Shown piece after piece: positions 13,694 to 15,997 of a stretch of 64,000 bases of DNA. Position 1 is the stretch's first letter, and every line of letters begins with the position of its first letter. The notes beneath the pieces are model-generated. The model was not told the DNA's origin. It searched no databases and was given only the letters and a program-made list of their open reading frames with translations. Made by a program: the position numbers and the translations under genes. The stretch covers positions 1 through 64,000 of the forward strand of contig CAJBNH010000183.1 of NCBI GenBank assembly GCA_903955385.1. Reading direction: 5' to 3'. This DNA comes from an uncultured Myxococcales bacterium. Its GTDB lineage: Bacteria > Myxococcota_A > UBA9042.

Positions 13694-14167
13694 TCAAGCC
13701 AGACGACGGGCGGCGCGGGCGATCTCGCGCTTGTCGTCCTTCTCCTTGAGGTCGTGCCGCTTGTCGTACAGCTTCTTGCCGGTGCCCAGACCGACTTCGG
13801 CCTTGATGAGCGAACCCTTGAAGTACAGCTTCAGGATGACGGCGGCCGAGCCCTTGGACTTCAGGCGTTCCTCGATCTTGAAGATTTCCTTGCCGTGCAG
13901 CAGGAGCTTGCGTTGCCTGGCCGGCTCGTGGTTGAACTGGTGCGACCATGGGTACTCGGGAATCGTCAGACCGAACACCCATGCCTCGCCGCTGACCACG
14001 CGCACGTGCGCGCCCGTGAGCGTGCACTTGCCCGCCCGCAGCATCTTCACTTCGCTGCCGGTCAGCTGCAGCCCCGCCTCGAACCGCTCGTCGAATTCGT
14101 AGTCGTGAAAGGCCTTGCGGTTCGACGCGATGACCTTGCCGTCGTGCTGATTCTTGCGTTGATTCAT
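13694..14167 (-). CDS. smpB: SsrA-binding protein
   Basis: A 157-residue SmpB, the tmRNA partner for ribosome rescue by trans-translation. Family marks are the start NRKAFHDYEFDERFEAGLQL, the block GSEVKMLRAGKCTLTGAHV and the basic C-terminal tail KKLYDKRHDLKEKDDKREI, which enters the mRNA channel. Length is normal. A strong GGGAGGGG lies upstream. It starts 21 nt after the stop of the PfkB/queuosine-salvage fusion and is probably cotranscribed with it. The ssrA gene itself is not in the window. Confidence 0.97.
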   Translation of the reverse strand: MNQRKNQHDGKVIASNRKAFHDYEFDERFEAGLQLTGSEVKMLRAGKCTLTGAHVRVVSGEAWVFGLTIPEYPWSHQFNHEPARQRKLLLHGKEIFKIEERLKSKGSAAVILKLYFKGSLIKAEVGLGTGKKLYDKRHDLKEKDDKREIARAARRLA

Positions 14168-14188: not shown

Positions 14189-15997
14189 CTAGTAGAAGGT
14201 CGTGCGGAGGACGGGCTGGAACATCTCGCGCTGCTGCGCGCACACGGGCTGCACCGGGCAGGTGGCGCACTCGGGCTCGCGCATCTCAGGGCAGCGGTGT
14301 CGGGCGCCAAAGAAGAACCAGTCGATGGTGCCGATGTCGCGCCCGGACCGCTCCGACAGCTCCAACACGGCCTGATAGCACGCGGATCGGACCGCCCACT
14401 CTTCAGCGGGCCGGACGAGTCGGCGCGCGACGATCTGGGCTCGCAGGTCCGGGTCGACGATCTCGACCAGCCCGGTTCGCAAGCACGAGCGCATCAGGTG
14501 GTAGTCGATGATGGGCTTCAGCGCACGGCCGCCGTCCAGATCGATGAACTTCTCAGGTCGTTGCCCCAACGCCGCCATCAGCAGCATCGTCTTCTTGCGC
14601 AGCGGGTCTTCGCGGTAGCCGGTGACGTGGTCCAGCGCCTGCACCAGAAACTTGACGGGGTCGGCCGAGGCGTTGGCTTCCTCCACCAGTTGCTCGGGCG
14701 TCCACCCCAGCTCCCACATGTCGCGGCCGTAACCGCGCGCCAGCGTGTGGTGGATCGCCAGCACCGGCATCGGCACCGAGCCATCGTCAGAGCGGAACAT
14801 CGCCTCGGTATCGCTCCACCGCAGCACCGATCGGCTACGGGGCGACAGTTGATCCGGGTCGTGGTCCAACAGCCGCTTGAACGCAGAGAAGCAATAGTCC
14901 GAGCCCTTCAGCTTCTGCCCGTTCAGCATCGCGTACGTCGGCCCGGCATAGGCGCCGTGCATCGGGCTCCAGAAGCCGAACTGGTGCAGGACCGAAGCGA
15001 ACAGGAAGTCGAGCGTGCCCGGTTGTCCCGCGGCGGGCAGGTGCGGCCCTGTGAAATCGAAAGGCTGGATGTCCTGCAGCCCGCGCAAGTGCTGGGCCAT
15101 GCGCGCGACCTGGTCTTCCCGCACGCGCACGCGGCCGTCGGACAAGGGCTGGCGCCGGGACTCGATGCGGTCGCGGGTGACTTCGAGCAGGGCAGCCATG
15201 CCGGGAGCCTCGATCGTGATGGCCGCCACCGCCGCGCCTTGACGAGCGGCCTGGGTCGGATGCAACCCCGCCAGCAGGCCGGCCAACATGCCGCCGCACA
15301 CCGAGTCGCCCGCACCCGTCAGGTCCACCGGCGTCGACATGCAGGCTTGGACGCGCGTGCAGTAGTCGCCCTGCCAGACGTCGGACCCGTCGGCGCCACG
15401 CGTGATGACCAGGATCTGGCCGGGACGCACCGTCGGAGCCTGCTGACCGAAGACCTGCTCCGCCTCGAAACCATTGAGGAAGAACAGGTCGACTGACTCC
15501 ATCAGCGACCGCACGGCGTCCGGTGCGCGGTGCACCATGTAGCCGAAGGTGCCAGCGGATAGCCGAGCGTTGGTGCGCTTGCGCAAGTCCTGCACGAAGC
15601 GGATCTGCAGGGAAGGGTCGTGGATCGCCGCGATGTGGATGTAGTCGGCCTGCAGAGCGTCGTCCGGCACCATCGAGGGATCGAGCGAGTCCTCGCTGCC
15701 CCACGTGGCACGCTCCAACCGGGCATCGCCGGCGGCGTCGTACACGATCTCGAAGTGCGGGATGTCTTCGAGTCGGCAGCTGGGGCCAAACCAATCGACG
15801 GCTTCGGCGGCGCTGTTGAAGAGTGCCGGCAAAGGGTCGGGCCGATAGGCGAAGAATCGCACGTGCGCGCCCGCGCGGCGGGCTGCGACGGCCGTGTAAA
15901 GCCCACCGCCGCCGGGGGTCACGACGGGTTGACCAGCGGCGCGCAGCTTGTCCACCGAAGCTCCGCCGATGATCAAGATGTGGGGCTGCCGCGTCAT
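14189..15997 (-). CDS. PfkB-type kinase fused to Qng1-like queuosine-nucleotide hydrolase
   Basis: A 602-residue two-domain protein. Residues 1-280 form a ribokinase/PfkB-family kinase, with PGGGGLYTAVAARRAG in the substrate region and the catalytic signature DLTGAGDSVCGGM (GAGD 228-231). Residues from about 290 resemble the DUF2419/Qng1 queuosine-5'-phosphate hydrolase. DFLFASVLHQFGFW (330-343) parallels the LNFSFW block. MFRSDDGSVPMP (400-411), the Lys-Lys helix at 468-478, FIDLDGG, PIIDYHLMRS (Asp498) and EWAVRSACYQAVLEL follow in the same order as in the human protein as I recall it. An extra four-Cys motif, C569-x7-C-x2-C-x5-C586, precedes the C-terminal strand. Predicted role: phosphorylate queuosine, then release queuine. 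The kinase is sure, the second domain likely, the substrate inferred. The ATG with AGGA upstream is preferred over a GTG 18 nt earlier. Confidence 0.82.
   Translation of the reverse strand: MTRQPHILIIGGASVDKLRAAGQPVVTPGGGGLYTAVAARRAGAHVRFFAYRPDPLPALFNSAAEAVDWFGPSCRLEDIPHFEIVYDAAGDARLERATWGSEDSLDPSMVPDDALQADYIHIAAIHDPSLQIRFVQDLRKRTNARLSAGTFGYMVHRAPDAVRSLMESVDLFFLNGFEAEQVFGQQAPTVRPGQILVITRGADGSDVWQGDYCTRVQACMSTPVDLTGAGDSVCGGMLAGLLAGLHPTQAARQGAAVAAITIEAPGMAALLEVTRDRIESRRQPLSDGRVRVREDQVARMAQHLRGLQDIQPFDFTGPHLPAAGQPGTLDFLFASVLHQFGFWSPMHGAYAGPTYAMLNGQKLKGSDYCFSAFKRLLDHDPDQLSPRSRSVLRWSDTEAMFRSDDGSVPMPVLAIHHTLARGYGRDMWELGWTPEQLVEEANASADPVKFLVQALDHVTGYREDPLRKKTMLLMAALGQRPEKFIDLDGGRALKPIIDYHLMRSCLRTGLVEIVDPDLRAQIVARRLVRPAEEWAVRSACYQAVLELSERSGRDIGTIDWFFFGARHRCPEMREPECATCPVQPVCAQQREMFQPVLRTTFY

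Follow-up and report, generated by a model that had tools for sequence, protein, structure and literature searches.

A divergent Qng1-family domain with an invariant four-cysteine motif, fused to a PfkB kinase

The fusion gene and its kinase half

The window, by which we mean the whole 64,000-nucleotide stretch of DNA that was analysed (from an uncultured Myxococcales bacterium), carries on its minus strand an open reading frame with no internal stops, encoding an intact PfkB-family kinase joined to a divergent domain of the Qng1 family (Table 1). Alignments with orthologues from the host's family-level group begin at or close to the same methionine. A first-pass annotation, made without database searches, had called these two domains and was right to do so, with the Q_salvage half lying exactly at the Pfam detection limit. 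It had read the fusion as a one-protein route from queuosine to queuine; the observation is confirmed, and the interpretation is supported in part. It had also taken the neighbouring smpB as a pointer to translation or tRNA biology. That gene does start 21 nt downstream, but the adjacency is local and only partly kept, and it carries little weight in this role.

Table 1. Features of the fusion gene and its neighbour, with coordinates in the window
Feature	Coordinates	Strand	Basis or remark
PfkB kinase / FeS-type Qng1-like hydrolase fusion	14189..15997	minus	602 aa plus stop
PfkB-family kinase domain, residues 1-285	15143..15997	minus	PF00294, E 1.4e-24; Foldseek
PfkB signature DLTGAGDSVCGG, residues 225-236, with catalytic Asp231	15290..15325	minus	GAGD invariant in 28 fusions
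Qng1-like domain of HhH-glycosylase fold, residues 286-602	14192..15142	minus	Pfam, AlphaFold2, Foldseek, hhalign
Lys468-Lys469; K468 aligns with Sphaerobacter Qng1 K199 and E. coli EndoIII K120	14591..14596	minus	invariant in 38/38; hhalign
Asp498 in IIDYHLMRSCLRTG; aligns with Qng1 D231 and EndoIII D138	14504..14506	minus	invariant in 38/38; hhalign
Asp559 to Phe563, equivalents of Qng1 D298 and W302	14309..14323	minus	profile alignment
Cys569, Cys577, Cys580 and Cys586 (C-x7-C-x2-C-x5-C), loop of EndoIII iron-sulfur type	14240..14293	minus	38/38 in the family, 0/20 canonical Qng1s
smpB, 21 nt downstream of the fusion ORF	13694..14167	minus	adjacency conserved only in part

The PfkB signature that had been noticed in the N-terminal half is borne out by Pfam, where residues 113-269 match PF00294 at 87.4 bits against a curated cut-off of 25.8, and by the GAGD tetrad (residues 228-231), which is the same in all 28 full-length fusions aligned. 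When the kinase model was compared with known structures using Foldseek, the highest TM-scores (relative to the target) among the matches listed belonged to the nucleoside kinases 3kd6 (0.81) and 2c49 (0.79), with E-values of ~3-5e-14, and ribokinases scored nearly as high (mostly 0.7-0.75). The modelled fold thus appears a little nearer to nucleoside kinases than to ribokinases. Nucleoside kinases of the PfkB/ribokinase fold (e.g., Chlorobium 3kd6, M. jannaschii 2c49 and E. coli PUKI) have this fold and the GAGD catalytic motif in common with the fusion. We take them to differ from it in the substrate-side segment, where the fusion lacks the usual N of GGxxxN.

Relation of the hydrolase half to Qng1 and endonuclease III

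Pfam detects the second domain only at its threshold. With the full protein as query, residues 325-462 match Q_salvage (PF10343) with an E-value of 5.9e-5 and 23.2 bits (cut-off 25), and the C-terminal domain scanned alone reaches 1.6e-5 and 25.1 bits (curated cut-off 25). The same model is matched by 25 of the 38 relatives' domains, at best with E 4.6e-10, and gave no match when searched against the host's own genome, an insensitive search given that the domain is present there. A single-sequence search of the PDB with the C-terminal half did not find Qng1, giving noise and endonuclease III (EndoIII) at E 7-10, so profiles are needed.

A profile of the 38 C-terminal domains has human QNG1 (7ugk) as its sole significant match in the PDB (E 5.6e-7). 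Aligned by hhalign with a reference set of 20 canonical Qng1 sequences, the human and Sphaerobacter proteins among them, the family profile matches over 267 columns (98.6%, E 8e-16). The domain was also modelled by AlphaFold2 using the family alignment (mean pLDDT 93.2, pTM 0.91), and in a Foldseek search of the PDB the first 11 ranks are all Qng1 (E 1e-11 to 2e-9; TM ~0.76 to Sphaerobacter Qng1), these being the only structures matched at E<0.001. The next matches, at E ~0.01, are the 8-oxoguanine glycosylase AGOG, EndoIII and MutY. The structural comparison with QNG1 that the first-pass annotation had proposed therefore returns the Qng1 fold, and the ordered DUF2419/Qng1 blocks that it had named are in place.

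The catalytic residues agree with this relationship. The Lys-Lys helix and Asp498, which had been singled out from the sequence, hold up, with residues 468-469 and Asp498 invariant in the 28 full-length fusions, and their counterparts K199 and D231 are the positions that had been mutated in crystallised Sphaerobacter Qng1 (according to the PDB titles). Two further Qng1 residues, D298 and W302, have been named as part of the active site (PMC11592518). By profile alignment, D298 of the Sphaerobacter enzyme corresponds to D559, which is invariant in 38/38 domains, and the active-site Trp302 is replaced by Phe563, a phenylalanine throughout the 38. The family thus has the whole-domain fold, the catalytic Lys and Asp and the third Asp in common with Qng1 (DUF2419, C9orf64, PF10343), the queuosine-5'-monophosphate hydrolase that frees the vitamin-like base queuine, and differs from it in its four-cysteine iron-sulfur-type loop, its Trp302-to-Phe replacement, its separate clade and its mostly kinase-fused state. 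With Trp302 replaced, a clade of its own and a new cofactor motif, it should not be classed as canonical Qng1. The earlier assignment to Qng1 accordingly stands for relationship and fold and falls for canonical membership, the family being a separate sister group with an FeS motif.

That motif, which is absent from the first-pass description of the domain, occupies residues 569-586 of the window protein (CPEMREPECATCPVQPVC). The pattern C-x7-C-x2-C-x4/5-C occurs in every one of the 38 family domains and in none of the 20 canonical Qng1s, and no other cysteine of the Qng1-like domain is conserved throughout the family. Searched with a profile built from the final 60 residues, the PDB gives endonuclease III in the first six places, always at the FeS loop and each insignificant on its own (E 0.11-0.35). 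Using hhalign, the family profile matches EndoIII with 91.8% and E 7.3e-7 over ~100 columns only, and this alignment pairs K468 with K120 of the hairpin (LPGVGRK) and D498 with D138 of VDTHIFRVCNRT, and places the cysteines over the FeS loop. The EndoIII-like segment VDxHxxRxxxRT, with the catalytic Asp, is present in the family. The canonical Qng1 profile gave no comparable match to EndoIII in the same comparison (2.3%, E 0.02), so it is this family that joins Qng1 to the EndoIII-type glycosylases by sequence.

Endonuclease III (Nth) therefore aligns with the family at its HhH Lys, its VDxHxxRxxxRT segment and its FeS loop, and it is without the Qng1-type N-terminal half that the family has. 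No EndoIII-type Pfam match was found for the family domains at E<0.01, and the Foldseek comparison of the Qng1-like domain with the EndoIII structure gives TM ~0.5 (E ~0.01). The first cysteine spacing, x7, is one residue longer than the C-x6-C of EndoIII. By likeness to that loop, the four cysteines may well hold a [4Fe-4S] cluster. The FeS loop together with the EndoIII-type catalytic segment forms a tie at sequence level between nucleotide salvage and DNA-repair glycosylases, which is not seen in canonical Qng1.

Distribution and phylogeny

The fusion is present in all 22 genomes of the host's family-level group, although three of these have it split or truncated by contig ends, and the 602-aa architecture of the window protein recurs across them. 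Full-length fusions are also found in three further family-level groups of the phylum. Scanning a single genome for each species, we obtained 44 loci of the Qng1-like FeS-type domain, with fusions in Myxococcales (Myxococcota), Acidimicrobiia and Ca. Neomarinimicrobiota (i.e., at least three phyla), so the fusion that was to be sought in other genomes recurs both in the host family and beyond it. Unfused copies, whose starts lie on or near the domain border, come from Verrucomicrobia, Kiritimatiellae, Hydrogenedentes and a few others. Searches of viral, plasmid and phage-family sequences found no relatives.

The host's own genome encodes a second full-length fusion (contig C13:10770-12575; L021:6768-8624), which shares 37% identity with the window protein. 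In its sequence features this copy is nearer to the other phylum members and the Acidimicrobiia members than to the type of the host family; two substrates may therefore be handled in this genome, or one copy may have been gained by transfer.

In the tree, the 38 family domains form one clade with 100% SH-aLRT support, outside the canonical Qng1 clade and on a long branch, ~4.6 changes per site from canonical Qng1. Pairwise identities of the kinase and hydrolase halves correlate at 0.95, as expected for a single unit inherited together.

Among 379 genomes of the phylum, 87 have canonical Qng1, 28 have the FeS type and none has both, against an expected overlap of 6.4 (hypergeometric P 0.0005, a value that carries no phylogenetic correction). 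Within each of two families (f23 and f53), the genera differ, some having canonical Qng1 and others the FeS type. This pattern suggests that the FeS-type family substitutes for canonical Qng1. PF10343-based surveys miss or barely detect this second Qng1-like family in Myxococcota, Acidimicrobiia and Verrucomicrobia, and we found no published description of a kinase-Qng1 fusion or an iron-sulfur Qng1 in the literature searched.

Queuosine genes and the proposed function

Genomes of the host family, where tested, encode QueA (13/13), QueG (13/13), TGT (12/13) and YhhQ (12/13), the last belonging to a transporter family of preQ0/preQ1 type. As the first-pass annotation had predicted, none of the 13 has a genuine QueC, with only weak partial PP-loop matches. 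The outside carriers reached by the all-genome scan have TGT in 19/19 and QueA in 18/19. In Acidimicrobiia the link to QueA is weak because the gene is common there anyway (140 of 198 overall), and its co-occurrence with the fusion is insignificant (P 0.12). The neighbourhood comparison found no Q gene or recurrent partner near fused or unfused copies that is common across phyla, and no stand-alone PfkB of the fusion's subfamily was found near 16 canonical qng1 genes.

The TGT of the host family has a GGLSVGE pocket, which is preQ1-type, and groups with QueA-associated TGTs. Queuine-inserting bacterial TGTs have the pocket GG[LS][AS]G, and the TGT of Bartonella, whose pocket is of preQ1 type, takes queuine when it is abundant (PMC11570991). 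We looked for a queuine-type TGT in the host family and found none; with a preQ1-type TGT in the host, a full route from queuosine through queuine to tRNA is unproven.

From the two folds, the catalytic motif in each half, the conservation of the fusion and the four invariant cysteines, we infer that the protein probably recycles a modified building block of tRNA in two steps. The modified nucleoside would come from tRNA turnover or from the environment. The N-terminal ribokinase-fold half would use ATP to phosphorylate the 5'-OH of its ribose, and the C-terminal half would then cleave the N-glycosidic bond of the 5'-monophosphate through the Lys468/Asp498 pair, as in Qng1, releasing a free 7-deazaguanine base. 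We favour, with moderate confidence, a bifunctional kinase/5'-nucleotide N-glycosidase that salvages queuosine or a very close 7-deazaguanine nucleoside. More tentatively, and as something possible rather than expected, we propose that the FeS sister family as a whole consists of one-chain queuosine (or 7-deazaguanosine) kinase/5'-monophosphate hydrolases which replace canonical Qng1 in several phyla, and that Qng1 descends from an EndoIII-like [4Fe-4S] glycosylase, with this family, judged by sequence, as the surviving link between them.

The nearest functional parallel is PsuKG, in which a pseudouridine kinase (PsuK) is joined to a pseudouridine-5'-phosphate glycosidase (PsuG); the PsuG part is presumably a C-glycosidase unrelated to the Qng1-like domain. 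In PsuKG, a PfkB kinase likewise makes a 5'-monophosphate that the fused glycosidase cleaves, but the domain order is reversed, and the PsuK-PsuG fusion has been described in eukaryotes (PMC9247573). A kinase is required before queuine can be salvaged from free queuosine, and for this step the literature searched gives only an activity in cell extracts, i.e., one making 5'-QMP that was claimed for animal cells without a gene (PMC4425180). A kinase fused to the hydrolase is a concrete candidate, and the two-step scheme is testable with one protein.

Several observations sit uneasily with queuosine salvage. The host-family TGT looks preQ1-type, leaving released queuine with no obvious direct use; the Qng1 active-site Trp is Phe; there is no conserved gene neighbourhood with Q genes; and a branch of ~4.6 changes per site is enough for a changed substrate. 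The same two steps might instead yield preQ1, preQ0 or another Q precursor that the host's preQ1-type TGT could use directly, which we regard as unlikely: characterised Qng1 enzymes act on Q-5'-MP, and mature tRNA should hold mostly Q, not preQ1. In favour of such a base, the gene content of the host family (GGLSVGE TGT, QueA, QueG and YhhQ, with no QueC) is that of a preQ0/preQ1 salvager, and a transporter beside the canonical qng1 of an Acidobacteriota carried preQ0/preQ1, to its authors' surprise (PMC11130926).

The Phe in place of the substrate-side Trp, the unlinked Q genes on the chromosome, the sequence relation to EndoIII and the next structural neighbours (AGOG, EndoIII and MutY) would also suit a PsuK/PsuG-like degradation of a different modified or damaged nucleoside (e.g., 8-oxoguanosine), unrelated to queuosine. 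We consider this improbable, since sequence and fold are closest to Qng1, including the N-terminal half missing from EndoIII, TGT accompanies the domain in every one of the 19 outside carriers, and the domain never co-occurs with canonical Qng1. It is very improbable that the protein is an EndoIII-type DNA (or tRNA) glycosylase incidentally joined to a sugar kinase, even with an EndoIII-like VDxHxxRxxxRT segment, an FeS loop and an hhalign E-value of 7e-7, because the match covers only 100 columns, the whole domain folds as Qng1 (TM ~0.76, against ~0.5 for EndoIII) and the identities of the two domains vary together; we also know of no role for a PfkB partner in DNA repair. A chance fusion or assembly artefact without joint function might be suspected in an assembly fragmented into 201 contigs, and is refuted by recurrence in dozens of independent assemblies from at least three phyla.

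Some side observations concern the TGTs themselves. The genes tgt and queA are separated on the chromosome, or sit on different contigs, in 12 host-family genomes; elsewhere in the phylum, most of the genomes examined have one tgt adjoining queA. One TGT clade, mostly with VQGS for VQGG (13 loci in the phylum), occurs together with canonical Qng1 in 12 of 14 phylum genomes examined, usually beside a second TGT that adjoins queA; in one genome with such a TGT (G125), QueA, QueG and genuine QueC were not detected. VQGS is also seen in four TGT loci of Verrucomicrobia/Kiritimatiellae with the unfused FeS-type domain. The VQGS TGT may be a queuine-inserting type without the published GG[LS][AS]G signature. 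Many queA-adjacent TGTs of genomes with canonical Qng1 (nine loci) have the pocket GGLGLGE, not GGLAVGE or GGLSVGE, and at one further locus the pocket is GGLGVGE.
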